A stretch of 32,390 nucleotides of DNA from the IMG/VR virus record IMGVR_UViG_3300030419_004825, positions 1 to 32,390 of that record. One strand, given 5' to 3'. The position numbers and the translations under genes were made by a program. Origin of the DNA: a virus. The notes below the pieces were generated by a model. It was given only the letters and a program-made list of their open reading frames with translations. It did no database searches and was not told the origin of the DNA. Positions 4,618 through 26,710 of this stretch are shown piece after piece (position 1 is the first letter of the stretch; every line of letters starts with the position of its first letter).

Positions 4618-5517
4618 ATGAAAATATTAGTTACAGGTGGTAGTGGTCTTGTTGGTTCTGCCATTACTGCTCATTTTAAACCAAGTCGCCATGAACTAGA
4701 TTTGATGGACATTGATGAAATCGTGGATTATATTGAGGAAAATGAAATCACGCATATCATCCATTGTGCCGCAAGAGTTGGCGGTTTAAAAGCAAACATG
4801 GAACATCTTGGTGAATTCTTTTACGAGAATATTATAATCAACACAAATGTATTGGAAGCGGCGAGAAGATGTGGAGTGGAGAAGGTTGTATCATTTATGA
4901 GTACTTGTGTATTTCCAGATGATGCAACTTATCCACTATCACCAGACCAGATTCACAACGGAGAACCACATCCATCAAATTATGGATATGCATATGCAAA
5001 GAGAATGTTAGAGGTGCAGAGTAGAGCATATCGGGAACAGCATGGATGTAATTTCGTTACGGTAATTCCCTGCAACATTTATGGACCAAATGATAACTTT
5101 GATTTGGATAGCAGTCATGTAATACCTGCATTAATTCATAAGTGTTATCTAGCAAAAGAGAGAGGTACAGATTTTGAAGTTTGGGGTTCAGGTCGTGCGT
5201 ATCGTGAGTTCGTTTATGTTGATGATGTTGCAACAATAGCAAAGTGGGTGCTTCATAATTATGATGACCCAGAACCCTTTATCATTTCACCAGATTTGGA
5301 AATAAATATGGCAATTTTGGCACAGACTATTTCCTTTAAGATGGGAGTTAATAAGATAGTTTATAATAACAAATATCCAGATGGACAGTTGAAAAAACCA
5401 TCTGATAATAGTATAATGAAGAGATGTTTACCAGATTTTGAATTCATACCAATTCAAGAAGGTCTGAGCAGAACAATTGATTGGTTTTTACAGGAATACG
5501 GAGTCCATTTAGTATGA
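4618..5517 (+). CDS. fcl: GDP-L-fucose synthase
   Basis: This short-chain dehydrogenase epimerises and reduces GDP-4-keto-6-deoxymannose to GDP-L-fucose. The Rossmann motif GGSGLVGS is at residues 7-14. The family signatures CAARVGG, STCVFPDD and YGYAYAKRM are present, with the catalytic Ser and the Tyr-x-x-x-Lys pair in place. It has 299 aa against about 320 for bacterial enzymes. It lies 3 nt after gp45 and overlaps gmd by 4 nt (ATGA), so the two steps of the pathway are translated together. Two GT10 genes downstream could use its product. Confidence 0.93.
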   Translation: MKILVTGGSGLVGSAITAHFKPSRHELDLMDIDEIVDYIEENEITHIIHCAARVGGLKANMEHLGEFFYENIIINTNVLEAARRCGVEKVVSFMSTCVFPDDATYPLSPDQIHNGEPHPSNYGYAYAKRMLEVQSRAYREQHGCNFVTVIPCNIYGPNDNFDLDSSHVIPALIHKCYLAKERGTDFEVWGSGRAYREFVYVDDVATIAKWVLHNYDDPEPFIISPDLEINMAILAQTISFKMGVNKIVYNNKYPDGQLKKPSDNSIMKRCLPDFEFIPIQEGLSRTIDWFLQEYGVHLV

Positions 5518-6530
5518 ATAAGATAGCACTCATCACAGGAATAAACGGACAGGATGGTTCATATCTAGCAGAGTTTCTATTGGACAAAGGATATTATGTT
5601 CATGGTATTTTACGAAGAAACTCAGTTGCAGAAAATCAGACTGCAAGACTGGATGACATTTTTAACCATGAGAGATTGAAATTGCATTATGGTGATTTAA
5701 CAGATTTGTCATCGTTAATTCATATTTTTCAAGATGTTCAACCATATGAAGTATACAACCTCGCGGCACAATCTCATGTGAGAATTAGTTTTGATGTTCC
5801 TGTTCACACATCACAGGTAGATGCAATAGGAGTATTGAATGTATTTGAGGCGTGCCGTATTTCTTGTCCTTATGCAAAGATATATCAAGCAAGTTCTTCG
5901 GAAATGTTTGGTAATTGTATTGATGATGATGGATTCCAAAGAGAAACAACACCAATGATGCCAGTAAGTCCTTATGGATGTTCAAAGGTTTATGCATTCC
6001 ATCTTGGGAGAAATTATAGAAATTCTTATGGGATGTATATTAGCAATGGCATTTTATTTAATCATGAATCTCCAAGAAGAGGTTCTAACTTTGTAACAAG
6101 TAAAATTGTTAAGGGTGCTATTGCAATAAAAACAGGAGAAGCAAAAAAACTTCGTATGGGAAATCTGGAAGCAAGAAGAGATTGGGGACATGCAAAAGAT
6201 TATGTAAGAGCAATGTGGATGATGTTACAACAAAACGAATCTGATGATTATGTTTGTGCCACAGGAATTTCACATAGCGTTCGTGATTGTTGCGAGTATG
6301 TTTTTGGCAAACTTGGAATGGATTATCAGGACTATGTTGTGTTAGATGAGAAGTATTTGAGGCCTGAAGAACTTCACGACTTAAAAGGCGATTCAAGCAA
6401 ACTTCGTAATGAAATTGGATGGATTCCAGAATATACTTTTGAAACTTTAATGGACGATATGATTGTTAATGATGAAAACTACAACAAAGCAGTTGAAGAG
6501 ATTCATGTACCATATGATGCAGTGAGATAA
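5514..6530 (+). CDS. gmd: GDP-mannose 4,6-dehydratase
   Basis: This enzyme converts GDP-D-mannose to GDP-4-keto-6-deoxy-D-mannose, the step before Fcl. The NADP-binding motif GINGQDGSYLAE lies at residues 9-20. Further family signatures are RRNSV, YNLAAQSHV, QASSSEMFG, SPYGCSKVYA (Tyr-x-x-x-Lys), LFNHESPRRG and RDWGHAKDYV. It has 338 aa, close to the usual 345-370. I chose the ATG at 5514, which overlaps the fcl stop as ATGA. The frame extends further upstream, but that would place 11 extra residues before a normal N-terminus. It ends 1 nt before gp44. Confidence 0.95.
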   Translation: MNKIALITGINGQDGSYLAEFLLDKGYYVHGILRRNSVAENQTARLDDIFNHERLKLHYGDLTDLSSLIHIFQDVQPYEVYNLAAQSHVRISFDVPVHTSQVDAIGVLNVFEACRISCPYAKIYQASSSEMFGNCIDDDGFQRETTPMMPVSPYGCSKVYAFHLGRNYRNSYGMYISNGILFNHESPRRGSNFVTSKIVKGAIAIKTGEAKKLRMGNLEARRDWGHAKDYVRAMWMMLQQNESDDYVCATGISHSVRDCCEYVFGKLGMDYQDYVVLDEKYLRPEELHDLKGDSSKLRNEIGWIPEYTFETLMDDMIVNDENYNKAVEEIHVPYDAVR

Positions 6531-6531
6531 A

Positions 6532-7470
6532 ATGAATAACGAATATTTATGGGTAGAAAAGTATCGCCCAAGAAAAATTGAAGATTGTATTCTACCACAA
6601 AGTATTAAAGATACTTTTCAACAAATGGTAGATGCGGGAGAATCACAGAATCTATTATTATCTGGAAGTGCAGGTTGTGGTAAGACCACCATTGCAAAAG
6701 CACTCTGTAACGAATTAGATACAGACTATATTATGATTAACTGTTCAGAAGATGGGAACATCGACACACTCAGAACAAAGATTCGTAATTTTGCAAGCAC
6801 AGTTTCAATCAATGGTGGCAAGAAGATTGTCATTCTTGATGAATTTGATTACAGCAATGCTCAATCAACACAACCTGCACTTCGGGGTTTCATTGAAGAA
6901 TTTAGTGATAATTGCCGATTCATTTTAACTTGTAATTTTAAGAATAGAATAATCGAACCAATACATAGTCGTTGCACTTGTATTCCTTTTTCTATTCCAA
7001 AGACAGAGAAACCTAAACTTGCATCTCAATTCATGGAGAGAGCAAAAGGCATTCTTGAACAAGAACAAATTGAATATGATGAGAAGGTAGTCGCAGAAGT
7101 TATAATGAAACACTTCCCAGACTTCCGAAGGGTAATTAATGAATTGCAACGGTATTCTGTTGCAGGAACTATAGATGTTGGCATACTCTCTACCATAGGA
7201 GAGATACACATCAAAGACTTGATGAAATATATGAAAAACAAAGACTTCACAAATGCACGAAAATGGGCAGTGGAAAATCTGGATAATGCACCAACAGAAT
7301 TGTTTAGAAAACTTTATGACGGATTGTATGATTCACTTACTTCTCCGTCAGTTCCTCAAGCAATTTTAGTTCTTGCGGAATATCAATATAAGTCTGCATT
7401 TGTGGCAGACCAAGAAATTAACTTAGTGGCATGTATTGTCGAACTTATGATGGGATGTGAATTTAAATGA
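6532..7470 (+). CDS. 44: Clamp loader large subunit (T4 gp44-like AAA+ ATPase)
   Basis: This ATPase opens the gp45 ring and loads it on primed DNA together with gp62. Walker A, GSAGCGKTT, lies at residues 45-53 and Walker B, VILDEFD, at 100-106. The SRC arginine-finger motif is at 146-148. The N-terminal WVEKYRPRKIEDCILP is typical of clamp loaders. Its 312 aa is close to T4 gp44 (319 aa). It follows gmd by 1 nt and overlaps the GroES-like gene by 4 nt. In T4 it would be directly next to genes 45 and 62. Here unrelated genes separate them on both sides. Confidence 0.93.
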   Translation: MNNEYLWVEKYRPRKIEDCILPQSIKDTFQQMVDAGESQNLLLSGSAGCGKTTIAKALCNELDTDYIMINCSEDGNIDTLRTKIRNFASTVSINGGKKIVILDEFDYSNAQSTQPALRGFIEEFSDNCRFILTCNFKNRIIEPIHSRCTCIPFSIPKTEKPKLASQFMERAKGILEQEQIEYDEKVVAEVIMKHFPDFRRVINELQRYSVAGTIDVGILSTIGEIHIKDLMKYMKNKDFTNARKWAVENLDNAPTELFRKLYDGLYDSLTSPSVPQAILVLAEYQYKSAFVADQEINLVACIVELMMGCEFK

Positions 7471-7760
7471 GTAAAAATTTTAAACCAATAGGAAAATGGG
7501 TCGCTGTCAAGACAGAATTAAGAAAAGAAAGAGTATCTGAAGCAGGTATTGTTTACAAAGAAGAAATTCAAAGTAATTTATATACTTGGAGTGATGTGGT
7601 GTCTGTCAGTGATGATATTTCGGAAGATGTTAGGCCGGGAGATAGAGTATATTGGAAACTAGGAACAAATAATGGCGCACATTATGAAGAAGACGGTGAG
7701 GTTTATGATTTGGTAAAAATAGATGATATTGAAGCGGTAGACCGTGATGAAACTGAGTGA
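7467..7760 (+). CDS. GroES-like co-chaperonin (T4 gp31 analogue)
   Basis: This 97-residue protein matches the Cpn10 fold. An N-terminal PIGKWVAVKTE strand is followed by the mobile-loop region EAGIVYKEEI. Next come DVVSVSDDI, the RPGDRVYWKLGT turn and the closing EVYDLVKIDDIEAV strand typical of GroES. Such phage proteins replace host GroES in folding the major capsid protein with host GroEL. It overlaps gp44 by 4 nt and gp62 by 14 nt, so it is cotranslated with the clamp loader, an unusual place for a chaperonin. Assignment rests on motif order; overall identity to GroES is clearly low. Confidence 0.78.
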   Translation: MSKNFKPIGKWVAVKTELRKERVSEAGIVYKEEIQSNLYTWSDVVSVSDDISEDVRPGDRVYWKLGTNNGAHYEEDGEVYDLVKIDDIEAVDRDETE

Positions 7761-8133
7761 TTATTTGGATGCTATAAACCATTCAAAGAAACCTTTAATG
7801 GATACTGAAGATGAGTCCGTAGAGAAAGGATACGCACCGTTTGTTGTTAATCGATGTTTGTCTTATTTTGTAGATACGGTATTATATTCTAATTATATGA
7901 ATCAATACCCACACATATCTGCAAAAATGCAATTTGATTATCTCTCTAGTTCTATCAGAAAAAGAAAAAGATTTAGTAAGTGGTTCAAGAAGGAAGAATC
8001 TAAAGATATAGAAATCATAAAAGAAATGTACGACTATTCGGATGCAAAAGCAAAAGATGTCATGCAATTATTAACACCCGAACAAATAAAAGAAATTGAC
8101 GAGTACCTTCATGGCCATGGTGTAAGGAAATAA
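7747..8133 (+). CDS. 62: Clamp loader small subunit (T4 gp62-like)
   Basis: This is the partner of gp44 in the clamp loader. The segment APFVVNRCLSYFVDTVLYSN, followed by KKRFSKWF-like residues and YDYSDAKAKDVMQLLTPEQI, matches the pattern of gp62 in marine T4-like phages. Gene order after gp44 and before RegA agrees with T4. The ATG at 7747 was chosen. A GTG one codon earlier (7744) is equally possible, and neither has a strong ribosome site. It overlaps the GroES-like gene. At 128 aa it is shorter than T4 gp62 (187 aa), as in marine relatives. Confidence 0.82.
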   Translation: MKLSDYLDAINHSKKPLMDTEDESVEKGYAPFVVNRCLSYFVDTVLYSNYMNQYPHISAKMQFDYLSSSIRKRKRFSKWFKKEESKDIEIIKEMYDYSDAKAKDVMQLLTPEQIKEIDEYLHGHGVRK

Positions 8134-13480: not shown

Positions 13481-14310
13481 AAAAGGTAATAAGTTTCAGT
13501 TTATGGGGAGATAATCCAAACTATACTATTGGAGCGGTTCTTAATGCCGATATAGCAGAGAAAGAATGGCCGGGTTGGACTTGTAGATTCTACATTGCAC
13601 CAACTGTTCCAGATGGAATTGTAGAAGAATTAAAATCAAGAGATAATGTAGAAGTTGTTCTCATGGACGAAGATGAATCTTGGAATGGAATGTTCTGGAG
13701 ATTTTACCCTGCATCGGACACAGGTGTAGATGTAGCAATTTTTAGGGACACCGATTCTCGTATGCATATTAGAGATAAGGCCGCAGTAGAAGAATGGATT
13801 GAAAGTGATAAGGGTGTCCACATAATGAGAGATAATTGCCAGCATGGTTGGGTAATTTGTGGCGGTTTGTGGGGAACTAAAAGAGGTGCAATTCCAGAAT
13901 TAAAGCAAAGAATAGAAGATAATGAAATGCTTAAAAACAAAAACTTCAATAAACATGGAGTAGACCAAATATTTCTGCAATATACAATATACCCCCTAAT
14001 AAAAGAAAAGGCATTCGTTCATGATGATTGGTTTCCTGACGGATTTGTAGGAGAAGAAAAGCATCCATTCCCAATTCCAAGATTAAGGGGAGATGGTTGG
14101 TGGAATCAAGAGTTTCCAGAATGGCATGGTGGTAAAGAGGATGACCCAGAAAAATATCCGCATTGGTTTGGAGAAGATGGCCAAGGACATTGTTTTTTAA
14201 AGTGTCCGGCATGTGGAGAATATCATGACAACGAATATCTAGGAAAAGTAACAATGCTAACAAAAGAAGAAGAAGAGAAATATTCTCATCTATTAGGAGT
14301 TAAAGTATGA
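13477..14310 (+). CDS. Glycosyltransferase, DxD type, tandem paralogue B with Cys-x-x-Cys tail
   Basis: This paralogue of the preceding gene has VISFSLWGDNPNYTIGAVLN, GMFWRFYPASD, VAIFRDTDSRM (RDTD at 90-93), HIMRDNCQHGW and GGLWGT. DQIFLQYTIYPL is the acceptor-side segment. After about residue 200 it diverges into a Trp-, His- and Pro-rich stretch. It ends with CPACGEYHDN at 243-252, a possible zinc-binding turn (Cys-x-x-Cys with nearby His) that the sister protein lacks. It has 277 aa, with 4-nt overlaps both sides. Donor and acceptor are unknown. Confidence 0.75.
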   Translation: MKKVISFSLWGDNPNYTIGAVLNADIAEKEWPGWTCRFYIAPTVPDGIVEELKSRDNVEVVLMDEDESWNGMFWRFYPASDTGVDVAIFRDTDSRMHIRDKAAVEEWIESDKGVHIMRDNCQHGWVICGGLWGTKRGAIPELKQRIEDNEMLKNKNFNKHGVDQIFLQYTIYPLIKEKAFVHDDWFPDGFVGEEKHPFPIPRLRGDGWWNQEFPEWHGGKEDDPEKYPHWFGEDGQGHCFLKCPACGEYHDNEYLGKVTMLTKEEEEKYSHLLGVKV

Positions 14311-15221
14311 AAATTGATAAGGTAGTATTTTCCACATCGGAAGAATATAGTGGATTTTGGAACATTCAATCCAAAGTATACAAGGAAGCACTAGGAATAG
14401 AGCCAGTTTGCTTGTTGTTTGGTAAGAAAGAAAATACCAACATGACAGAAGAATATGGTACTATCATTGAACGAGAGTTTATTGAAGATTTGCCAAAGGT
14501 TATTCAGATAACTTGGTCTAAATTTGATTTTCCAAAGACTGAACCAGACACTACTTGGATGATTGGTGACATTGATATGATTCCCCTACAACGATATTAT
14601 TTCACCGAACACATATCTGATGCAAAAGAAGATGCTTACTTGCATTTGAATCTTGCCGGCATATCTTTGCCAAGAAGAGGTTCTTTGGATGCTTTTATAA
14701 CAGAAGGTTCGGAAGCACATTGCAGAGATAGAGGAAGTTATAATACTGGTGCAGATTTAGCAGGACATTATCATGTTTCTAAAGGTTCAAACTTTATAAA
14801 GGTATTTGATTTGGATAGACCATTTAGGGAACAAATTGAATATATAACATCTGCACATCGTTACGGTCTAGGTCCTGCGGGACAAGCAAAAAAACCAGAA
14901 GGTATAGACGAGGTAATGAATGCCGGCAGTTATTACTGGTGTGCAGAAGAAAGTTATTCTTCAGAAAGAATATGGAATGCCATGACGGCTAAAGAAATTG
15001 TATTTGGTGGTTATTGTTATCACAATTCTCTCAATAGAGTTGATAGAAGTACATGGAATAATGACATTAAAGAATATCAATATGACCCGGCCAGACTAGC
15101 AAATGGAAGAGATATTGTTGATATTCATTGCGAAAGACCATACGAAAAGCAAGAGGAAGCACTAAATAGGATTATAGAATTATCTGGTATTTTATCGCCT
15201 GTGGAAGCAATTAGTGAATAA
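14307..15221 (+). CDS. Probable glycosyltransferase with DxD motif
   Basis: This 304-residue protein starts with a beta-alpha unit (VVFSTSEEYSGFWNIQS). WMIGDIDMIPL, with DID at 88-90, is the expected GT-A metal site. A YNTGADLAGHYHV segment and later YWCAEESYSSERIW may form acceptor or donor contacts. It resembles hypothetical proteins of polysaccharide clusters more than any CAZy family I can name. It overlaps the previous gene by 4 nt and the kinase-aldolase by 8 nt. A glycosyltransferase role is inferred from the motif and position only. Confidence 0.6.
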   Translation: MKIDKVVFSTSEEYSGFWNIQSKVYKEALGIEPVCLLFGKKENTNMTEEYGTIIEREFIEDLPKVIQITWSKFDFPKTEPDTTWMIGDIDMIPLQRYYFTEHISDAKEDAYLHLNLAGISLPRRGSLDAFITEGSEAHCRDRGSYNTGADLAGHYHVSKGSNFIKVFDLDRPFREQIEYITSAHRYGLGPAGQAKKPEGIDEVMNAGSYYWCAEESYSSERIWNAMTAKEIVFGGYCYHNSLNRVDRSTWNNDIKEYQYDPARLANGRDIVDIHCERPYEKQEEALNRIIELSGILSPVEAISE

Positions 15222-16629
15222 GATTATTGCAATATCTGGAAGTTCTGGAGTCGGGAAAACAACAATATCCCGACTTATTTCCATTGCTTTGCCAAATGAA
15301 AAAACTTTGGTATTTAGTGGAGATGACCTGCACAGATGGGAGAGGGGAGATGAAAATTGGAAAACATATACACACCTAAACCCAGAAGCAAATAATCTTC
15401 TATTGGGATATGAACATTTAAGAACTTTAAAGAGCAACAACAAGATAGTTCACAGGAAATATAATCACGATACTGGAAAGTTTGACCCAAGCATAGATGT
15501 GTATCCTGCGAAGTTTATAGTGTATGAGGGCCTTCATGCACTTTATGATGTTCGGGTTAGGGATTTATCTTGGATTAAAATATTTGTAGATACTGATGAA
15601 TCCTTAAAGAAAGAATGGAAGATTAAAAGAGATACTCAAAAAAGAGGATATACCAAAAAGCAGGTCGAAGATGCAATGTCTAGAAGAACTGCCGATGAGA
15701 AAAACTACATTACACCACAAAGAAAATATGCTGATGTTATAATTCGTTTTAAGAAGGATAACGATAGAGTATTATTAACTTATGAGTTGATAAATCCTGA
15801 AGCAAAAGAATTAATGGAAATGTTATCTGTAGCATACAACAAACATTTTGAATTTATTGATGTTTGTAATTCGCTGTCAACGGACTTCAATCTAGTGCAA
15901 AGTCGTGGTGGAAATGTTTCTTATAAAATAAATGATAAATTAATAATAACTTCTTCTGGTTCAAAGATGTCGGATGTAACTACATTTAGTGGTCATTGTA
16001 TTTGCAACATACATTTACTTCCTTCATACTTTAATGATGAAACTTTTTATACAAATAAACTTATGAAATCCAAACTATTTGAATCCAATGAAAGGCCTTC
16101 TATGGAAACTGGGTTGCATAGCAATTTAGAAAAATGTATAGTACACACTCACCCAATTTATTTGAATGTTATATTATGTTCAAAAGAATCTGAGAATATA
16201 ATAGAAGAAATATTTTCTGATTTGGATTATGAATTTGTTATATACTCTAGCCCTGGCATAGAATTGTCAAATGCAATAGGAAGTTACAGAGAAGCATCAG
16301 TTTATTTCCTACAGAATCATGGGTTGGTGGTTTGTGATGATAATCTCAGCAATGCTTATGAACTGACTAAATATATTAATGAAGAAAGTAGAAAATGGTT
16401 AGAGAAAAATAAAAGAGATTTTCATTGGAAAATAATGCCTGATAATGTCAATAGTCCAGATTATCTTTTTCCAGATGCTGTAGCATTAAGTGAAGAAAAT
16501 TCAAATGTAAATAATTATCTCTATAAGGGTATAGTAAATATAGGACTGACTCCAAACTTTTTAAATGGCGAAGAAATAGATAAGATAAAGAATATGGAAT
16601 CTGAGAAATACAGGAGAAGTTTAGTATGA
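15214..16629 (+). CDS. Phosphoribulokinase/uridine kinase-like domain fused to class II aldolase
   Basis: This is a 471-residue two-domain enzyme with a GTG start. Residues 1-180 form a P-loop kinase of the phosphoribulokinase/uridine kinase family: GSSGVGKTT at 9-17, YEGLHALYDVRVRDL at 104-118, and WKIKRDTQKRGYT followed by YADVIIRF. The spacing is notably like that of phosphoribulokinase. Residues from about 205 to 400 are a class II aldolase/adducin domain. It has SRGGNVSY at 230-237, SSGSKMSD, PSMETGLH at 295-302 (candidate catalytic Glu 298), the zinc ligands in HTHP at 311-314, and NHG at 368-370. A kinase that phosphorylates a small sugar or polyol next to an aldolase acting on a sugar phosphate suggests one short pathway. 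The substrates are unknown. Confidence 0.85.
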   Translation: MNKIIAISGSSGVGKTTISRLISIALPNEKTLVFSGDDLHRWERGDENWKTYTHLNPEANNLLLGYEHLRTLKSNNKIVHRKYNHDTGKFDPSIDVYPAKFIVYEGLHALYDVRVRDLSWIKIFVDTDESLKKEWKIKRDTQKRGYTKKQVEDAMSRRTADEKNYITPQRKYADVIIRFKKDNDRVLLTYELINPEAKELMEMLSVAYNKHFEFIDVCNSLSTDFNLVQSRGGNVSYKINDKLIITSSGSKMSDVTTFSGHCICNIHLLPSYFNDETFYTNKLMKSKLFESNERPSMETGLHSNLEKCIVHTHPIYLNVILCSKESENIIEEIFSDLDYEFVIYSSPGIELSNAIGSYREASVYFLQNHGLVVCDDNLSNAYELTKYINEESRKWLEKNKRDFHWKIMPDNVNSPDYLFPDAVALSEENSNVNNYLYKGIVNIGLTPNFLNGEEIDKIKNMESEKYRRSLV

Positions 16630-17477
16630 AAATTATTGTGCCTATGGCAGGAACAGGAAATAGATTTGTTCAGGCTGGATATGAAGACCCAAAACCACTC
16701 ATTAGAATAAATGGAAGAAGAATAATAGAATATATCTTGGATATGTTTTCAGATGACGATGAGTTTGTCTTTATTTGTAATGATGTCCATTTAGAAACAA
16801 CAAATATGCGTGAAGTATTAGAAGAACTAAAACCAAACGCAAAGATTATTTCTATGCCACAACACAAAGGTGGACCAGTTTATACTGTACAGGTTGCATA
16901 CGATGAGATAGATGACGATGAAGAAGTAATAGTTTCATATTGTGATAATCCGTATCTATGGAACAGAGAGGATTTTATTTCAAAAGTAGAAAATCTCGAT
17001 GGTTGTGTTTTGACACATACAGGATTTCACCCCCATACTCTTGCATCAACTAAAATGGCCTTTGTAAAGGATAAAGATGGGTTGTTGGAAGAAATAAAGG
17101 AGAAAGAATGCTACACAGACAATCCTATGGACGAACACGCATCAACAGGCATCTATTACTTCAGAAAAGGGTCTTACATTAAAAAATACTTTGATGAATT
17201 AGTCGAGAAAGATATTAACTATAATGGTGAATATTATGTAACTTTGGTGTATAACCTTTTAGTGGAAGATGGATTGACTGTTGGTTACTATGACACCCCA
17301 TATGTTACTGTGTTTGGCACACCAGATGAAGTTGAGAATTTTGAAGCATGGGCCAGCATTCTAAAGGGAAGTCAAGTTAAGAGTGAAGAAGATTTATTGA
17401 AATGTTATAATTATTGGAAAGGATATCATGAAAGTAGTGAACAAAGAAGAAAACCTGCGGTTCTCGCCAGAGGGTGA
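16626..17477 (+). CDS. Sugar-phosphate nucleotidyltransferase
   Basis: This 283-residue enzyme of the NTP-transferase family would activate a sugar or polyol phosphate with CTP, UTP or another NTP. The N-terminus IIVPMAGTGNRFVQAGY, then PKPLIRINGR, is the diagnostic nucleotide-binding loop with its Lys. VIVSYCDNPYLW holds the metal-binding Asp strand. DEHASTGIYYFRKGS and NGEYYVTLVYNLLV are typical product-side segments. It overlaps the kinase-aldolase by 4 nt and the HAD gene by 50 nt, so it probably uses a product of those enzymes. The nucleotide and substrate cannot be read from the motifs. Confidence 0.88.
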   Translation: MKIIVPMAGTGNRFVQAGYEDPKPLIRINGRRIIEYILDMFSDDDEFVFICNDVHLETTNMREVLEELKPNAKIISMPQHKGGPVYTVQVAYDEIDDDEEVIVSYCDNPYLWNREDFISKVENLDGCVLTHTGFHPHTLASTKMAFVKDKDGLLEEIKEKECYTDNPMDEHASTGIYYFRKGSYIKKYFDELVEKDINYNGEYYVTLVYNLLVEDGLTVGYYDTPYVTVFGTPDEVENFEAWASILKGSQVKSEEDLLKCYNYWKGYHESSEQRRKPAVLARG

Positions 17478-17793
17478 ACCAAGAAAAATATTCGTAGACA
17501 TTGATGAAACTATATGCTTTTTTCCCAAAAAAAGAATTTATGAATTAGCAGTGCCAAATTATGAAAATATTGAAAAGATAAACAAACTATATGACGAAGG
17601 TAATATAATTACCTATTGGACTGCTAGAGGTTCTTCTCAACCAGACAACGAAGAACGAATGAATGAATATAGAGATTTAACATTTTCCCAATTAGTAAGT
17701 TGGGGATGTCTATTTCATCATTTAGAACTTGGAACTAAACCTAATTTTGATTTACTCATAGATGATAAGGTGAAAAGAATCGAAGAAGTATGA
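17428..17793 (+). CDS. HAD-superfamily phosphatase of the polysaccharide type
   Basis: This 121-residue small HAD protein has the catalytic loop FVDIDETIC (nucleophile Asp and acid Asp) at 22-30, the Thr-bearing YWTARG segment, and the closing LLIDDK motif that holds Mg2+. Small HADs of this kind occur in capsule and LPS loci, where they remove a phosphate from a sugar intermediate. AAAGGA lies 4 nt before the ATG at 17428. The start lies within the end of the nucleotidyltransferase, a 50-nt overlap that is long for this window. It overlaps the next gene by 4 nt. The substrate is unknown. Confidence 0.82.
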   Translation: MKVVNKEENLRFSPEGEPRKIFVDIDETICFFPKKRIYELAVPNYENIEKINKLYDEGNIITYWTARGSSQPDNEERMNEYRDLTFSQLVSWGCLFHHLELGTKPNFDLLIDDKVKRIEEV

Positions 17794-18632
17794 TTAAAGA
17801 GATAGGACTATTCTATGAAGATATATGGCCTGAAAAAAAGAACGGGCCTGCTAAAGTTGCAAAAAATCTAATAGCAGGACTATCTTCTTTGGGAGTTACG
17901 GTTCATCGTAATGCTTTATTAAAATATACAGGTATATTACAACCCTATCCCCTTCCCGACCTTAAACAAAATGCTTTAATAGGTCCAAATAGTTTCAATC
18001 TTCCCATTGAATATGGTCCTTCTTCTTGGGAAATAAAAAGAAATATTGTAGCACCATCAGAATGGATTGCGAACCGATGGAAAGAAGATTTAGACTCAAA
18101 ACATAATGTTCATGTTTGGCCAGTAGGAATAGACACTGATTATTTTACACCATCAACCGAACCTCCAAAAATTGATTGTTTGTTTTATTATAAACTTTCT
18201 TCTCTGAGTGGTAACTTACAAAAGGTTTTGAAAAAAATGATAGACGATGGTATCTCATATGAAGGAATTATCTATGGAAATTATGAAGAAGAAGAACTTA
18301 TTTCTATTGCTAGGTCCTCAAAGTATTGTATTATGGTGGCAAGTTCAGAAACTCAGGGTATAGCATATCAGGAAATTCTTTCAATGAATATACCAATGTA
18401 TGTTCTTGATTGTAATGTAACTCATCACTTTAAACCAAACAATCCCGAAGGTGTAACTTCCGCACCATACTTTGATGATAGGTGTGGAATAAAACATCCA
18501 GACCTTTCACGATTTGATGAATTTTTAGATAGGCTGGATGAGTTCTCTCCAAGAGAATATATATTAGAGAACCTTACACTTAAAAAGTGTGCGAGTGAAT
18601 ATCTTTCGTTATTGGAGAAGTGTTATGAGTGA
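17790..18632 (+). CDS. GT4-like (GT-B fold) glycosyltransferase
   Basis: This 280-residue protein is a probable GT-B transferase. An N-terminal domain with GPAKVAKNLIAGLSSLGVTV leads to VAPSEWIANRWK and VWPVGIDTDYFTP, the classic Rossmann-hinge junction of GT4. The C-terminal donor domain has SSKYCIMVASSETQGIAYQE, in which the E-x7-E type segment is partly kept (SETQGIAYQEIL). It is shorter than most GT4 enzymes (350-400 aa), with a reduced N-terminal domain. It overlaps the neighbours by 4 and 8 nt. Donor and acceptor are unknown. Confidence 0.75.
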   Translation: MIKEIGLFYEDIWPEKKNGPAKVAKNLIAGLSSLGVTVHRNALLKYTGILQPYPLPDLKQNALIGPNSFNLPIEYGPSSWEIKRNIVAPSEWIANRWKEDLDSKHNVHVWPVGIDTDYFTPSTEPPKIDCLFYYKLSSLSGNLQKVLKKMIDDGISYEGIIYGNYEEEELISIARSSKYCIMVASSETQGIAYQEILSMNIPMYVLDCNVTHHFKPNNPEGVTSAPYFDDRCGIKHPDLSRFDEFLDRLDEFSPREYILENLTLKKCASEYLSLLEKCYE

Positions 18633-19092
18633 TATTACCTTTATATCCCACAGAGGAAATATTGAAGGTGTATGGGCAGAAAGAGAAAATAGCCCAGATT
18701 ATATTGACCGTGCAATAAAACTCGGTTACGATGTAGAAGTAGACCTTCGTTCTAAAGATGGAAAACTGTGGCTTGGTCATGATGAGCCACAATATGAGGT
18801 CTGTATTAGTTGGTTGTTGGGAAGAAGAGAAAATTTATGGGTTCATGTAAAAGATTATGGGGCATTAGTTTCTATTATGAGAACAGAATTAAGATTCTTT
18901 TGCCACGAACAAGACAAATATACACTTACAAGTAATGGTTATATATGGTCACATGATTTAAATAATAAAATGAATGATAGGTGTATAGTTCCATTACTAT
19001 CATCAAAAGAAGTTGCTTCTTATGAGCAGAGAGGATTTTATGCAGTATGTTCCGACTACATATATGAATGTGAGGAAAAATTTAATGATTGA
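18625..19092 (+). CDS. Short glycerophosphodiester phosphodiesterase-like protein
   Basis: This 155-residue protein carries the GDPD/PI-PLC-like signature. HRG lies at 9-11, NSPDYIDRAIKLGYDVEVDL at 22-41 supplies Glu38 and Asp40, and the second His is in LWLGHD at 48-53. A full GDPD TIM barrel is about 240 residues, so this protein lacks the last strands or is a compact version used in polysaccharide loci. Such enzymes cleave glycerol-phosphate type diesters. I chose the ATG at 18625, which has GGAG 7 nt upstream and an 8-nt overlap with the previous stop. The longer frame to 18589 has no such support. Confidence 0.7.
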   Translation: MSDITFISHRGNIEGVWAERENSPDYIDRAIKLGYDVEVDLRSKDGKLWLGHDEPQYEVCISWLLGRRENLWVHVKDYGALVSIMRTELRFFCHEQDKYTLTSNGYIWSHDLNNKMNDRCIVPLLSSKEVASYEQRGFYAVCSDYIYECEEKFND

Positions 19093-19864
19093 AAATATAG
19101 TGAATTGGATTTCTGATTATGCAAAAGATAACAAATTAACCACATTGGTAATTGGTGTTTCTGGTGGCATAGATTCTGCTGTAACTTCAACTCTTTGTGC
19201 AATGACAGGACTAAGAGTAATTGTTCTTAATATGCCTATCCATCAAGATAAGACTTTAGATTCAATGTCTGATAAGCATATAGATTGGTTGAAAGAAAAA
19301 TACACAAATGTAGAATCTCAAAAAATTGACTTAACAAAAACATTTGAAATGTTTTCTGATTGTTTTGAGGAAAGAGATAAGGATAGTCTTTCTTTAGCAA
19401 ATTCTCGTGCAAGATTACGAATGACAGCACTATATCAAATTGCAGGAGCGAATGGAGGTCTTGTGGTTGGTACTGGAAATAGAGTTGAAGATTTTGGTGT
19501 GGGGTTTTTTACAAAGTATGGAGATGGTGGAGTAGATATCAGTCCTATTGCCGATTTAATTAAAACGGAAGTTTGGGAAATCGCAAAGGAACTTGAAATA
19601 GAAGAAGAGATTATTAATGCACCACCTACAGATGGTTTGTGGGACGATGGAAGAACTGATGAAGAACAGTTGGGGGCATCATATGCAGAAATTGAAATGG
19701 CAATGGCCTATGCTGAAGAACATGATTTAAACGATTTTGAACCAACTGGAAATAATTCGTTTGACTTGGTATTGAAAGCATATTTTTCACACAGGAATAA
19801 GAATATTCATAAAATGAAATCTATTCCCATTTTTAAAAAGGATAAAATATGCTTTGTACAGTAA
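19085..19864 (+). CDS. nadE: NAD+ synthetase, ammonia-dependent type
   Basis: This enzyme amidates nicotinic acid adenine dinucleotide to NAD+ using ATP and ammonia. The PP-loop SGGIDS lies at residues 26-31. The remaining signatures are kept: RARLRMTALYQIA, GTGNRVED, FFTKYGDGGVDISPIADL and a PPTDGLWDDGRTDEEQLG segment. No glutaminase domain is present, so ammonia must be free or supplied by the host. It has 259 aa, normal for this type. I chose the ATG at 19085 (GAGGA 8 nt upstream, 8-nt overlap). It might serve NAD supply, counter host NAD depletion, or provide cofactor for the sugar dehydrogenases here. Those roles are inference. Confidence 0.92.
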   Translation: MIENIVNWISDYAKDNKLTTLVIGVSGGIDSAVTSTLCAMTGLRVIVLNMPIHQDKTLDSMSDKHIDWLKEKYTNVESQKIDLTKTFEMFSDCFEERDKDSLSLANSRARLRMTALYQIAGANGGLVVGTGNRVEDFGVGFFTKYGDGGVDISPIADLIKTEVWEIAKELEIEEEIINAPPTDGLWDDGRTDEEQLGASYAEIEMAMAYAEEHDLNDFEPTGNNSFDLVLKAYFSHRNKNIHKMKSIPIFKKDKICFVQ

Positions 19865-20532
19865 TGGTGCCGACTAGAGGAAGAGTAGAACATTTGAATA
19901 AGATGTTATATACATTATTTTCTTCTGTTTCTGACCCAAATTGCATTGAAGCAGTTATGAGGGTAGATGAAGATGATGTTGAAACACAAGACTATCTGGC
20001 AGATAAATTGAATAACAATATTAAAATGATTGTTGGGGAAAGATATAGAGGATATGTAGAATTAAATAGATTCTATAATGAAATAGCAGAACAAGCAAGG
20101 GGAACTTGGCTATTTCTTTCTAACGATGATTTATATTTTAATAAAACTGATTGGGATTTGCAATTGGCAAAGATAGAAGAGGTTTTGGTTTTAAATCCAA
20201 AAACAATGTTAAATGGCTCATGGTTGCCGGCAGAAACAGGAAATACATTTCCAATAATGCACAAAAGAATTCATGAAGTTTTGGGATATTTTTGTCCTTG
20301 TTTCTTAAATGACGCTTACACTTCTAAGTTAGCAAAATCAGTAGAATTGGAAAGGTACGCACCATTCATAGAAATCATTCATACCAGAGGCGATTTGAAT
20401 GAACATAATGATGTCGTAGTAAGGGAATCAATGGGAATTCCACATGGAACATATGAAGCATGTGAAGAAGCACATCTTCATGGTGATATAGAAAAAATAT
20501 TAAATTCAGATTTAAAAGGAATACTAAAATGA
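19849..20532 (+). CDS. GT2-like glycosyltransferase
   Basis: This 227-residue single-domain GT-A protein opens with TVMVPTRGRVEHLNKMLYTL, the usual GT2 start. A helix-strand unit carries MRVDEDDVETQDYL, and TWLFLSNDDLYF holds the NDD metal-binding site. IIHTRGDLNEHNDVVV lies in the position of the GT2 acceptor loop. AAGGA precedes the ATG at 19849 by 6 nt, and the start lies 16 nt inside nadE. It is coupled to ugd by a 4-nt overlap. No membrane segment is seen, so it should act in the cytoplasm. Donor unknown. Confidence 0.78.
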   Translation: MLCTVMVPTRGRVEHLNKMLYTLFSSVSDPNCIEAVMRVDEDDVETQDYLADKLNNNIKMIVGERYRGYVELNRFYNEIAEQARGTWLFLSNDDLYFNKTDWDLQLAKIEEVLVLNPKTMLNGSWLPAETGNTFPIMHKRIHEVLGYFCPCFLNDAYTSKLAKSVELERYAPFIEIIHTRGDLNEHNDVVVRESMGIPHGTYEACEEAHLHGDIEKILNSDLKGILK

Positions 20533-21794
20533 AAATAGGATTTATGGGATTAGGAAAATTAGGTTTGCCTTGTGCTTTAGCAATAGATGAAAAAGGTCAC
20601 GAGGTTTGTGGTTATGATATAAATTCTAGTGTTAAGAATATTCTTGATACAAAGGAACTTCCTTACAGAGAAGAAGGAGCGCCAGAACTTCTACAAAATC
20701 ACAACATTACTTTCTGTGATGTAGAGAATGTGGTCAAGAATTCTGACATTATTTTTGTTCCCATTCAGACCCCACATGACCCGTACTTTGAAGGGACAAC
20801 TAGACTACCAGAAGAAAGAGTAGATTTTGATTACACATATCTAAAGGATGGTCTTAAAACTTTGTCTGATGAGATTGACAGACAAGGTGAAGAAAAGATT
20901 GTAATTATTATTTCTACCGTTTTGCCAGGAACTGTTCGGAGAGAAATTAAACCAATTCTAAGTAACCTAATTAAGTTATGTTATAACCCTTTCTTCATTG
21001 CAATGGGAACTACAATCAATGACTTTACGAATCCTGAATTTGTTCTCTTTGGTGTGGACGATAAAGATGCATATGAAACTGCAAAAGATTTTTATGCCAC
21101 TATTCACGATAGACCAGTTTATGAATGTACTATCGAAGAGGCAGAAATGATTAAGGTTTCATACAACACTTACATCACTATGAAGATTAATCTTGCAAAT
21201 GTCATTATGGAAGCGGCTCATAAATTAGATAATGTGAATTGCGATAATGTTATGCGTGGTATGTTCCTTGCTAATGAAAGACTTATTAGTACCAAGTATC
21301 TTCTTGGTGGAATGGGAGATGGTGGTGGATGTCACCCAAGAGATAATATTGCGTTGTCATGGATGGCACAAGAATTAGATTTGAGTTACGATTGGTATGA
21401 AAATTTAATGGTTTGTAGAGAGAAACAAACAGAATGGCTAGCAGATTTAATTTTAGATAAAGTTTCAGAATCTGGATTGAATCCAATCATACTAGGTAAG
21501 TGTTTCAAGAAAGAAACAAACTTGACTGTCGGTAGTCCTTCTATTCTGTTGAAAAATATACTATTAGAAAAAATTGATTCTGTAGAAATGTATGACCCTT
21601 GGGTTGATGATGGTGAAGCACCAATTGGTGAACCTGCTATATTCTTTATTGGAACAAATCATGATAAGTTTTTGGATTATAAATTTCCAGAAGGTTCTGT
21701 AGTCATAGACCCTTGGCGTATGATGAAAGAACAAGATGGAGTGGAGTATATTTATGTCGGAGATAGTACAAGAAAAAAATATGCTAGTGTCTGA
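20529..21794 (+). CDS. ugd: UDP-glucose/GDP-mannose dehydrogenase family (nucleotide-sugar 6-dehydrogenase)
   Basis: This enzyme oxidises the C6 alcohol of a nucleotide sugar to a carboxylate with two NAD+, typically UDP-glucose to UDP-glucuronate. The NAD-binding GLGKLGLP lies at 7-14. STVLPGT is at 130-136 and MIKVSYNTYITMKINLANV, with the conserved Lys and Asn, is at 207-225. The catalytic cysteine is in GGGCHPRD at 265-272 (Cys268). C-terminal ILGKCFKKETNL fits the family's third domain. It has 421 aa, normal length. Exact substrate is open: the GGGCHP context differs from the GGSCFP of typical UDP-glucose enzymes. nadE two genes upstream could support its NAD need (inference). Confidence 0.88.
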   Translation: MKIGFMGLGKLGLPCALAIDEKGHEVCGYDINSSVKNILDTKELPYREEGAPELLQNHNITFCDVENVVKNSDIIFVPIQTPHDPYFEGTTRLPEERVDFDYTYLKDGLKTLSDEIDRQGEEKIVIIISTVLPGTVRREIKPILSNLIKLCYNPFFIAMGTTINDFTNPEFVLFGVDDKDAYETAKDFYATIHDRPVYECTIEEAEMIKVSYNTYITMKINLANVIMEAAHKLDNVNCDNVMRGMFLANERLISTKYLLGGMGDGGGCHPRDNIALSWMAQELDLSYDWYENLMVCREKQTEWLADLILDKVSESGLNPIILGKCFKKETNLTVGSPSILLKNILLEKIDSVEMYDPWVDDGEAPIGEPAIFFIGTNHDKFLDYKFPEGSVVIDPWRMMKEQDGVEYIYVGDSTRKKYASV

Positions 21795-22668
21795 TAAACT
21801 GAGGCCGAAAGCATCTTATCCAACATATCCTCCATATCATAGGGGATTGTACTTGGAAGAATACTTCTTTGATTTTTATCAAAGAAACATTGACCGTTTT
21901 AATAAGTTAAGTCGGCAATATCTTCCTATATTCTGGACAAACTGTTATGTCAATGGTGTTGAAGATGGTTGGGGAGATATAACTTCTCTGGAGGATTTGC
22001 AAATAGAAATTAACAGACTTGACGCCAATGGTAAATATTTCACAATTTGCCAACACGATGATGCACCAATGAATCCCATTCCCGCAAACACTATTGTACT
22101 ATCAGCAGGGGGAAATATAGTAGGAAGCAATGTAGCACCAATTCCACTTATTTGTGGTCCACTTGCCAAGCAAGAACCTAAAGAAAAAACTTTGCTTGCA
22201 TCTTTTGTCGGTTCGGATACTCACGAAATAAGAAGACAGATGGTAAAAGAACTAAAAGACAAACCAGACATCTATATAGCAACTAAGGGATGGGAACAGA
22301 AAATAAAAGTAGACCAACTCACAGATTTCGTAGAATCATCTCTAAGGAGTAAATTTGTTCTTTGTCCTAGAGGGTATGGGGCAACTAGTTTTAGATTATA
22401 TGAAGCAATGCAATTAGGTTCTGTTCCAGTTTACATCAGTGATAGATTTTGGACTCCTTGGACCTATGAGTTGAGTTGGAATGAATTTTGTGTTCTAATC
22501 CCCTCAGATAAAATTGGAGAAACATATTCAATTTTAAACTCTATAGACGATGAGCAATATGAAAGTATGCAAAGAAAGATTAAAGAAGTATATGAAAATT
22601 ACTTTACATTAGAGGGAACTTGTAATAAAATATTACAACTATTAGAATTACAGGAAACATTAGAATGA
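21754..22668 (+). CDS. Exostosin family (GT47-like) glycosyltransferase
   Basis: The exostosin signature lies in the C-terminal half: SSLRSKFVLCPRGYGATSFR, then LYEAMQLGSVPVYISDRFWTPW. In this family that region binds the nucleotide-sugar donor. LLASFVGSDTHEIRRQM upstream also fits. Exostosins transfer glucuronate, GlcNAc, galactose or xylose, and the neighbouring ugd could provide UDP-glucuronate. I chose the ATG at 21754 because GGAG sits 7 nt upstream. Alternatives are ATGs at 21736 and 21781. It overlaps ugd by 41 nt with this start, and the epimerase by 4 nt. No N-terminal membrane anchor is seen, unlike in animals. Confidence 0.85.
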   Translation: MSEIVQEKNMLVSDKLRPKASYPTYPPYHRGLYLEEYFFDFYQRNIDRFNKLSRQYLPIFWTNCYVNGVEDGWGDITSLEDLQIEINRLDANGKYFTICQHDDAPMNPIPANTIVLSAGGNIVGSNVAPIPLICGPLAKQEPKEKTLLASFVGSDTHEIRRQMVKELKDKPDIYIATKGWEQKIKVDQLTDFVESSLRSKFVLCPRGYGATSFRLYEAMQLGSVPVYISDRFWTPWTYELSWNEFCVLIPSDKIGETYSILNSIDDEQYESMQRKIKEVYENYFTLEGTCNKILQLLELQETLE

Positions 22669-23555
22669 AATATTTAGTTACAGGTGGTGCAGGATTTATT
22701 GGAAGCAATTTAGTAGATGAACTTATTAATCAAGGTCATGAAGTTGTTTGTGTTGATTTGAATGATGAAGGATATTGGAATGTTGATGCAGACAATTATT
22801 GTTGGGATGTTTGTGATTCTAAAAAAATGAATACTTTAATGGATGGGGTAGATGCAGTATTTCATATGGCCGCAGAAGTAAAAATACAGGAAACAATATC
22901 AGACCCAGTTAAGTGTTATAACACTAATGTTATCGGCACTTCTGTTGTGTTGGATTCTGCCAGAAAAAATAATGTAAAGAAAGTTGTACTGTCTTCAACT
23001 TCTGCAATTTATAAATGTGACTGGTTAGTACAACCAGAAGATTCTTCTGAAGACCCATCACTTAGTCCGTATGCATCGTCAAAGAAAAGTGCAGAGGATT
23101 TGTGTAAACTATATTCTAATTGTTATGGATTGAACACAACAATATTGCGGTATTTTAATGTGTATGGAAATAGACAACACAGTGAAGGTCAATATGCACC
23201 AGTATTGGGAATCTTTATCAGACAAAGAACTGAAAACAAACCACTAACAATTACAGGAGATGGAACTCAAAGAAGAGATTTCGTTCATGTTGATGATGTA
23301 GTTAGGGCAAATATTTTAGCATCACAAAGTTTTGAAAAATCTGGGGAAATTTATAATGTTGGAAGTGCAAAAAATTATTCTGTTCAGGAAATAGCAGATA
23401 TGATTTGTCCAATTCAGACATACATAGATAAGAGAGAGGGTGAAATAGAAAGTACTCTTGCAATTATTGACAAGATTGAAAGTGAATTAGATTGGACCCC
23501 AGAAGTTTCTTTAGAAGAATGGTTACAAAATGAATTGAAAGTGGTTACAGTATGA
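22665..23555 (+). CDS. NAD-dependent nucleotide-sugar epimerase (GalE-like)
   Basis: This extended short-chain dehydrogenase has GGAGFIGSNLVDEL at 7-20, an AAEVKIQETI strand, STSAIY and the catalytic Tyr-x-x-x-Lys in PYASSKKSAEDL. LRYFNVYGNRQ, then GDGTQRRDFVHVDDV, shows it acts on a nucleotide sugar, as in UDP-glucose or UDP-glucuronate 4-epimerases. It has 296 aa, slightly short (usual 310-340). Placed two genes after ugd, it may interconvert UDP-glucuronate and UDP-galacturonate, or be a GalE. The sequence alone does not settle this. It overlaps both neighbours by 4 nt. Confidence 0.87.
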   Translation: MKYLVTGGAGFIGSNLVDELINQGHEVVCVDLNDEGYWNVDADNYCWDVCDSKKMNTLMDGVDAVFHMAAEVKIQETISDPVKCYNTNVIGTSVVLDSARKNNVKKVVLSSTSAIYKCDWLVQPEDSSEDPSLSPYASSKKSAEDLCKLYSNCYGLNTTILRYFNVYGNRQHSEGQYAPVLGIFIRQRTENKPLTITGDGTQRRDFVHVDDVVRANILASQSFEKSGEIYNVGSAKNYSVQEIADMICPIQTYIDKREGEIESTLAIIDKIESELDWTPEVSLEEWLQNELKVVTV

Positions 23556-25450: not shown

Positions 25451-26710
25451 ATGGTACAATCTTTTCAACAATTTTCCAATAATGATAATGAAGAATATCG
25501 AGAGGGTTCTTCTAATATATTATTTGGTAAAAATAACAAAGAAAGAGAATTTGAATTAGTTTCTTCAATTGGCGGATATGAAACAGGCCACATATTTACA
25601 ATTTCTAACGAAGAATATCAAAATTCAAAATTAATAGAAGTTGGAACAGGAATTAGTGAAGTAACAGTTCTTGATGAATATAACGAACCAGTTTCATTTG
25701 TTGGTTCTTCTTCTAAAATAAATTCTTTATTTGATGAAATTATTCCGAAGGAGAATGATTTAATAAAAGAAGAAGTTCCACCTATCATTATTCGTGAGGA
25801 AATTATCGGCACTCAGGGGCAACAGGGATTACAGGGAATACAAGGTTCAAAAGGAGATAAGGGAGAACAGGGAATCCCTGGCATGCCAGGAGAAGATGGA
25901 AGGGACGGTAAAGACGGAGAGCAAGGCCTTCAGGGTGAAAAGGGTGAACAAGGTGAACAGGGAATTCAAGGCGAACAAGGCGAACAAGGGATTCAAGGTG
26001 AAAAGGGCGATAGGGGTGAACAAGGCGAACAAGGGATTCAAGGTGAACAAGGAATTCAAGGCGAACAAGGGATTCAAGGTGAACAAGGAATTCAAGGTGA
26101 ACAAGGAATTCAAGGAGAAAAGGGCGATAAAGGTGAACAAGGTGAACAGGGAATTCAAGGTGAAAAGGGCGATAGTGGTGAGCAGGGGATTCAAGGACAG
26201 AAGGGTGAAAAAGGAGATAGAGGTGAACGAGGGTTACAAGGACCTCAAGGACTTAAAGGATTAAAAGGCAAAGACGGAAAAGATGGAAAAGAAGGACCAC
26301 AAGGTAAAGAAGGACAAGATGCATTTATAGAAGCACAGTTTCCATTAAAATATGACGATAAAAAGAAAAGAATTAGTGTAGATAAAAAGACTTTACAGAA
26401 TATGATGAGAATTCCCCCTAATCAATTTCAAAATGTAGATTGGGTAGCACTTGCAGGGGGTGGTGCAGTCGGTATTCGTGATGGTGGCACACCAGTCATC
26501 AACTCAGTTAGTGATTTGAATTTTAAAGGTAGTGGTGTATCAGTAGAAAGAAAAGGAAAAGATGTAGATTTAACATTCACAGATACAGGGACATTCACAG
26601 AATCGGAAACTGCACCGTCAAACCCATCAAATGGTGATAGATGGCACGAAACAGACTCAGGAAAACTATTTACCTATTCTGGAGAAAATTCTGCATGGAT
26701 AGAATTTTGA
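25451..26710 (+). CDS. Collagen-like tail fibre protein
   Basis: This 419-residue virion protein has three parts. Residues 1-119 are an acidic N-terminal domain, likely for attachment to the particle. Residues 120-290 are about 57 continuous Gly-X-Y triplets, dominated by GEQ, GIQ, GEK and GDK, which should form a collagen triple helix. The last 129 residues include a Gly-rich segment (LAGGGAVGIRDGGTPVIN). They end in a small module, GDRWHETDSGKLFTY ending in WIEF, also seen at 2568-2879. Charged Glu/Lys triplets stand in for hydroxyproline stabilisation, as in other phage and bacterial collagens. The ATG lies 3 nt after the small ORF, with no strong ribosome site. Confidence 0.9.
   Translation: MVQSFQQFSNNDNEEYREGSSNILFGKNNKEREFELVSSIGGYETGHIFTISNEEYQNSKLIEVGTGISEVTVLDEYNEPVSFVGSSSKINSLFDEIIPKENDLIKEEVPPIIIREEIIGTQGQQGLQGIQGSKGDKGEQGIPGMPGEDGRDGKDGEQGLQGEKGEQGEQGIQGEQGEQGIQGEKGDRGEQGEQGIQGEQGIQGEQGIQGEQGIQGEQGIQGEKGDKGEQGEQGIQGEKGDSGEQGIQGQKGEKGDRGERGLQGPQGLKGLKGKDGKDGKEGPQGKEGQDAFIEAQFPLKYDDKKKRISVDKKTLQNMMRIPPNQFQNVDWVALAGGGAVGIRDGGTPVINSVSDLNFKGSGVSVERKGKDVDLTFTDTGTFTESETAPSNPSNGDRWHETDSGKLFTYSGENSAWIEF
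25808..26320 (+). repeat. Tandem 9/18-bp collagen-coding repeats
   Basis: The Gly-X-Y region is built at DNA level from near-identical units such as ggaattcaaggcgaacaa and gggattcaaggtgaacaa. The densest part lies at about 25957-26170. The units differ mainly at wobble bases. Such repeats can expand or contract by slippage or recombination in steps of 9 or 18 bp without shifting the frame. Confidence 0.9.

Follow-up and report, generated by a model that had tools for sequence, protein, structure and literature searches.

Carbon fixation and the archaeal breakdown of nucleosides are the settings in which ribulose 1,5-bisphosphate (RuBP) is known. In the haloarchaeal non-carboxylating pentose bisphosphate pathway it is made from guanosine, via a ribose 1-phosphate kinase and a ribose 1,5-bisphosphate isomerase, and then broken down: a HAD phosphatase converts RuBP to ribulose 1-phosphate, on which a class II aldolase of the FucA type acts next (PMC9700705). 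The locus described here lies in a viral stretch of 32,390 bases (IMG/VR record IMGVR_UViG_3300030419_004825, henceforth the window), a T4-like phage contig with gp45 clamp, gp44 loader and T4-type RNase H genes. It consists of a phosphoribulokinase (PRK)-like kinase fused to a class II aldolase, followed by genes for a sugar-phosphate nucleotidyltransferase, a small HAD phosphatase and a GDPD-type phosphodiesterase. The predicted route would have in common with the haloarchaeal one RuBP, the HAD 5-phosphatase, ribulose 1-phosphate and the class II aldolase, in the same chemical order and often in one operon. In the module, however, the PRK-like kinase would supply RuBP, a nucleotidyltransferase, GDPD-type enzyme and glycosyltransferases follow, and the HAD of the phages is a different one. 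The isomerase and the ribose 1-phosphate kinase were absent among the recurrent neighbour families, of which not all were annotated.

Two kinds of surface-sugar system also resemble the module. Heptose-type pathways likewise phosphorylate a sugar, trim the distal phosphate and activate the product, but the module has another kinase family, no SIS isomerase in its core, and an added class II aldolase and GDPD. The gtr (GtrA/GtrB/Gtr) O-antigen cassettes resemble the bacterial copies, which usually stand with GtrA, a GT2 glycosyltransferase and membrane proteins; an ordinary gtr cassette draws on a nucleotide sugar of the host, whereas one with the module brings its own sugar-making pathway. The fructose and glycerol capsule routes of Campylobacter jejuni were considered as counterparts and set aside, as the papers on them show no matching gene set. 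Neither under its gene combination nor under pentulofuranose biosynthesis did we find a description of the module in the open-access literature, although a subscription paper could exist.

We propose, with about an even chance of being right, that these genes form a mobile pathway leading from a pentose phosphate to a nucleotide-activated pentulose (ketopentose) used in glycosylation. Sequence comparison establishes the enzyme families, their catalytic residues, the conservation of the module and the losses of kinase and aldolase from some copies; from these we infer the substrates, the order of the late steps, the role of the GDPD-type enzyme and the product. The kinase would convert ribulose 5-phosphate to RuBP, and the HAD phosphatase would remove the C5 phosphate to leave ribulose 1-phosphate, which is able to form a furanose ring. 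Where there is an aldolase, it would break and remake the C3–C4 bond and thereby change the stereochemistry, e.g. from D-ribulose 1-phosphate to L-xylulose 1-phosphate. D-Ribulose 1-phosphate is 3R,4R, and L-xylulose 1-phosphate results if cleavage and re-addition invert C4. The resemblance of the kinase to class II PRKs, that of the HAD to RuBP 5-phosphatases and the position of the aldolase in the haloarchaeal order are what suggest these substrates for the first three steps. The nucleotidyltransferase (type N1, see below) would then activate the product, the GDPD-type enzyme would act on the resulting phosphate link, and glycosyltransferases would place the sugar on a glycan, on the host surface or the virion in the case of phages and, through the gtr-type cassette, on an O-antigen-like glycan in bacteria.

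An earlier note on the window had envisaged a possible new activated-sugar pathway that may yield a short-chain or branched sugar or a polyol. The pathway stands in outline, the module recurring beside glycosyltransferases in many phages and bacterial phyla in a combination not found in open-access papers, with its substrates and the coupling of its activities as predictions. The product suggested there fares less well: a ketopentose is favoured and, because neighbourhood clustering placed no oxidoreductase in the conserved core, a keto sugar seems preferable to a polyol.

If correct, the proposal would add a further use of RuBP, a route to surface sugars across many bacterial phyla and phages, and would provide a source for pentulofuranose residues in O-antigens, such as L-xylulose. 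A lead is offered by the Yersinia enterocolitica O:10 O-antigen, which carries an L-xylulofuranose side branch needing an outside source, the described cluster holding no genes that make L-xylulose (PMC11380512); a link to the module is hypothetical. We found the kinase in one of 25 Yersinia genomes searched, a set that held no O:10 genome.

Recurrence of the module in phages and bacteria

In the window, the kinase–aldolase fusion and the overlapping nucleotidyltransferase and small HAD genes behind it lie as the earlier note had placed them (Table 1), and Pfam matches, motifs and a structural match of the HAD agree with the families it had named; the GDPD-type gene, the fifth member of the module, had been overlooked. 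Pfam delimits a PRK domain (PF00485, residues 4–183, E 1e-43) and an Aldolase_II domain (PF00596, residues 214–390, E 2e-16) in the fusion, and its AlphaFold model (pLDDT 89) shows two clean domains. The same fusion is found in some 20 other viral contigs, and a variant in which a membrane domain, kinase and aldolase are all joined occurs in one bacterial contig (L030), so that an assembly slip can be discarded. The fusion and nucleotidyltransferase genes overlap by 4 bases, and the nucleotidyltransferase and HAD genes by about 50 as called; the conserved part of the HAD begins at about residue 19 and its true start may thus be later.

Table 1. Module genes, domains of the fusion and adjoining genes in the window
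Feature	Positions	Strand	Description
Kinase–aldolase fusion protein	15214..16629	+	471 aa, GTG start; Pfam PRK + Aldolase_II; AlphaFold model
PRK-like kinase domain	15214..15798	+	about aa 1–195; motifs; nearest solved structures are PRKs
Zinc-dependent class II aldolase domain	15826..16626	+	about aa 205–471, C-terminal extension ending ExxKYR; fold match
Sugar-phosphate nucleotidyltransferase, type N1	16626..17477	+	283 aa; Pfam NTP_transf_3, E 1e-9
Small HAD phosphatase	17428..17793	+	121 aa, start codon uncertain; HAD motifs; 9iqw match
Minimal GDPD-type phosphodiesterase	18628..19092 (called ORF from 18589)	+	invariant residues, model, fold
Glycosyltransferase-like gene, between HAD and GDPD	17790..18632	+	weak Glyco_transf_4, E 4e-4, under curated cut-off
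304-aa protein, upstream neighbour of fusion	14307..15221	+	no Pfam match; family 14 of neighbourhood clustering

Scans with the kinase retrieved 62 viral and 78 cellular loci. The latter came from Aenigmatarchaeota, Rickettsiaceae, Ruminococcus, Bacteroidia, Flavobacterium, SAR86, Campylobacterota, Legionella, many Beta- and Gammaproteobacteria and others, many of them metagenome-assembled, so that single placements may be wrong. With hidden Markov models (HMMs) built from these loci, we counted co-occurrence in 107 distinct kinase contigs having at least 4.5 kb on each side (58 cellular, including one plasmid, and 49 viral), most of which had been picked by the kinase alone, without selection for the neighbours. 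An aldolase was present in 97, N1 in 100, a HAD in 97 and a GDPD in 95, with all five functions together in 87 (71 of 87 when near-identical kinases were counted once).

Bacterial copies usually sit in a gtr-like glycosylation cassette: they adjoin a GT2 gene in 52 of 58 cases and a GtrA gene in 40, usually with membrane proteins too, while the window gave no GtrA match. One such cassette is on an Escherichia coli IncR plasmid, where the kinase is annotated as 'uridine kinase'. Identical copies of a cassette with the module are carried by small plasmids of two E. coli, from human stool and from a bullfrog (L008 5463–14425, NZ_CP145712.1; NZ_JCAPUP010000005.1). Among 5,426 E. coli genomes the enterobacterial cassette was found in two plasmid copies only and in no chromosome, by a search at the DNA level that diverged copies would escape.

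These neighbourhoods bear on the idea of an auxiliary metabolic shunt, through which phage genes would drain RuBP to dihydroxyacetone phosphate (DHAP) and glycolaldehyde, with the linkage to sugar genes being incidental. Kinase, phosphatase and aldolase alone would indeed make the haloarchaeal shunt (PMC9700705), and cyanophages carry the module. Yet N1 and GDPD recur with the same constancy as the aldolase, which some copies lack altogether, the kinase is found fused to glycosyltransferase-like or membrane domains, and the bacterial copies lie in gtr-like cassettes, all of which makes such a shunt very unlikely.

Kinase relationships and loss of the kinase in cyanophages

The kinase has conserved motifs (Walker A GSSGVGKT, DDxH, YxHxTG and KxxRDxxxRG), scores 149.9 bits against PF00485 (cut-off 22) and matches PRK in fold with Z 23.6. 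By score, tree and fold its nearest relatives are the class II PRKs. Its score against NF005655, an NCBIfam PRK subfamily, was 196.3 bits over 208 of 326 model positions, the C-terminal part of PRK being absent, and since this falls below the cut-off of 236 we do not file the kinase as a PRK and say rather that it would work like one. It shares motifs, fold and closest relatives with the class II PRKs of the Calvin cycle but is shorter (about 195 residues), has a signature of its own (WxRxxxxWxxxTHLNPxAN), lacks Calvin-cycle neighbours and is fused to other domains. In phages the partner is an aldolase, as in the window, or a glycosyltransferase-like domain; the bacterial kinase is preceded by about 380 residues of hydrophobic, membrane-protein-like sequence. 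The 'uridine kinase' label of the E. coli plasmid copy and the common fold family might suggest a uridine or nucleoside kinase serving nucleotide salvage. This is barely credible given the 92.6 bits obtained with the udk model against the 196.3 with the PRK one, the tree, which groups the kinase with the class II PRKs, and the glycan genes nearby.

The cultured cyanophages S-SM2 and Bellamy carry N1–N2, the same neighbouring gene family, the aldolase, the HAD and the GDPD, but no kinase was found anywhere in S-SM2 (191 kb) or Bellamy (205 kb) with a query that detects it in other phage records. A scan based on the aldolase gave 67 viral loci, and in 20 of their contigs, among them the S-SM2 and Bellamy entries of IMG/VR, the kinase was missing over the whole contig, these kinase-less contigs being mostly fragments. 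The photosystem genes psbA/psbD were found in five of the 20 (all four longer than 60 kb and one shorter), against none of 28 kinase-bearing contigs of 47–385 kb. Cyanobacteria produce RuBP with a kinase of their own. As the kinase is missing where the host makes RuBP, the simplest reading of these genomes is that RuBP is what the module kinase makes; the cyanophage copies would then point to a metabolic hand-off, the virus omitting a step already performed by the host.

Two other cyanophages, S-CAM9 and B23, have a HAD fused before an N-type nucleotidyltransferase (L164 3848–5233; L166 6089–7462) and, close by, a GDPD, and gave no kinase or aldolase match. We put this related but different set aside; it is perhaps a sister pathway for another sugar.

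Predicted phosphatase, aldolase and activation steps

The HAD differs between phages and bacteria. The small type is found in 44 of the distinct viral contigs and a large type in one; 52 cellular contigs have the large type and none the small, with no contig having both; the module thus seems to require some phosphatase step of this kind. The small HAD of the window had no match in Pfam or NCBIfam. It matches a solved structure labelled 'Capsule biosynthesis protein' (9iqw, E 7.5e-9), a code for which nothing was found in open-access papers. Its catalytic set (DxDxT, T, K, D) is kept in 36 of 36 distinct homologues, and the first-motif Asp residues, Thr and Lys are kept in all 66 large bacterial HADs. 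For the latter, the best model in five genomes was the haloarchaeal RuBP 5-phosphatase NF053830 (166–197 bits), to which the other HADs of those genomes scored at most 70 bits.

The order of kinase, phosphatase and nucleotidyltransferase could also fit a modified form of an established nucleotide-sugar route, the heptose pathway for example, with the kinase acting on another sugar phosphate. In the S-SM2 cluster a phosphoheptose isomerase and a heptose kinase/adenylyltransferase are indeed annotated, and there is a SIS-domain gene beside one phage module (L002). However, the window module contains neither a SIS isomerase (GmhA) nor a GHMP/heptose-type sugar kinase, none is in the conserved core, and the heptose route offers no role for a class II aldolase. 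As for SSM2_207, the S-SM2 'phosphoheptose isomerase', it is itself the small HAD of the module and hence mis-annotated. We therefore regard a heptose-like route as improbable. SSM2_207 (L163 10419–10730) scores 162 bits with the HMM of the module small HAD, and gp212 of Bellamy (L165 8013–8321) bears the same public label and is likewise that HAD. In L002, the stretch immediately upstream of the module (6337–7987) was judged by eye to encode an HpcH/HpaI-like protein and another in which a SIS domain is joined to a HAD-like part.

The aldolase domain scores 60.7 bits against PF00596 (cut-off 22.2), and its fold matches those of class II aldolases (e.g. 3m4r, Z 20.7; 2opi, Z 18.1; 6btg, Z 17.2). 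Residues E298, H311, H313 and H369, which align with the catalytic Glu and the zinc-binding His of FucA, are invariant in 16 fusions. An AraD-type L-ribulose-5-phosphate 4-epimerase was rejected by family, given a low score and a Glu at the position of FucA Glu73 where AraD has Asp; epimerisation through cleavage and re-addition by the aldolase is still allowed, its stereochemical preference not being readable from sequence. One contig (L140) is about 90% identical to another (L138) around the module but is short of precisely the aldolase gene, its kinase, HAD, GDPD and N1–N2 being intact; two further contigs, of 131 and 46 kb and alike, also gave no aldolase match. These copies indicate that the aldolase is probably an optional side step that alters the sugar and not an obligatory link.

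They also weigh on the most serious alternative, which keeps the same upstream steps and takes the enzyme as a true aldolase or a dehydratase. The activated product would then be a C2 or C3 unit derived from glycolaldehyde or DHAP, an MtnB-like deoxy-diketose, or a ketose reassembled from DHAP and a different aldehyde. In its favour, the haloarchaeal counterpart cleaves ribulose 1-phosphate to DHAP and glycolaldehyde and takes many aldehydes (PMC9700705), and the catalytic Glu and zinc-binding His are kept here. Nevertheless, loss of the aldolase gene with the other four intact is hard to fit with an aldolase that makes the skeleton for N1, and DHAP is available without this pathway. We consider this alternative possible, though clearly less probable than the pentulose pathway.

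Two orthologous types of nucleotidyltransferase occur across the module, N1 and N2, with N2 usually fused behind N1; the order is N1 then N2 in all 78 double sequences, and separate genes sort in the same way. The enzyme of the window is of type N1, and among 14 contigs of phages with this form of the module, possibly fragments, only one (L098) has an N2 elsewhere. L031, from the insect symbiont Candidatus Regiella insecticola, has a decaying copy in which the two nucleotidyltransferases are split into fragments.

The GDPD-type protein is a minimal form of 154 residues (model pLDDT 97) that scores below the cut-off of PF03009 (14.7 against 23.6 bits). Its nearest folds are nevertheless GDPDs (best matches E 2e-3), the HR..N, ExD and HD active-site residues are present, and H8, R9, E37, D39, H51, D52 and K75 are invariant in phage and bacterial homologues. 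A His or Asn replaces what we take to be the usual third metal-binding Glu of the family.

For these late steps we can offer a speculation, itself rather unlikely, in which the phosphate migrates. N1 would make a nucleoside diphosphate (NDP)-1-pentulose. With the GDPD-type enzyme, attack by the anomeric hydroxyl would give a 1,2-cyclic phosphate and then the anomeric 2-phosphate, which N2 would convert to an NDP-2-pentulose, a ketofuranosyl donor. If true, a ketose would here be activated at its anomeric carbon in a new manner, and the joint occurrence of N1, GDPD and N2 in bacteria would be accounted for; how phages with N1 only, such as that of the window, finish the route is left unexplained.

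Several observations count against the pentulose pathway as a whole. The kinase-less phages form one clade nested within kinase-bearing ones (support 0.94), which implies one kinase loss, so that the argument from host RuBP rests on a single change; and autotrophic bacteria with the cassette (Nitrosospira, Sideroxydans) retain the kinase, though fused to a membrane domain there. The cassette HAD scores below the equivalog cut-off of NF053830 (330 bits) and is for that reason not filed as a RuBP 5-phosphatase, and the small phage HAD is unrelated to it and gives no hint of its substrate. Sequence does not tell whether the enzyme is an aldolase, a dehydratase or a decarboxylase, as FucA and YgbL of E. 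coli score alike, and the GDPD has no obvious job in the scheme.

Other genes in the window

The module belongs to a long series of genes for glycosyltransferases and nucleotide-sugar enzymes. The glycosyltransferase-like gene between HAD and GDPD lies outside the conserved core, and its product is a possible user of the pathway product. Upstream of the fusion, the 304-residue protein, with relatives in 14 viral loci of our set, is a possible glycosyltransferase. Directly after the GDPD gene, and overlapping its end, comes an NAD synthase gene (19013–19864, Pfam E 1e-51).

At 4618–6530 and 20529–23555 are genes for a GDP-mannose 4,6-dehydratase, a GDP-fucose-synthase-like protein, a UDP-glucose/GDP-mannose dehydrogenase and another short-chain dehydrogenase/reductase; as judged by these families, the phage encodes nucleotide-sugar steps beyond the module. 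Downstream of the glycosyltransferase run, a collagen-like Gly-X-Y protein (25451–26710) may be a candidate target for glycosylation on the virion. Near the start of the window is a gene (772–2175) for a glutamine synthetase that has both the catalytic and the beta-grasp domain and, at its N-terminus, a thioredoxin/glutaredoxin-like stretch (NPNCGWCKKA), for which the thioredoxin match is weak (E 0.025).

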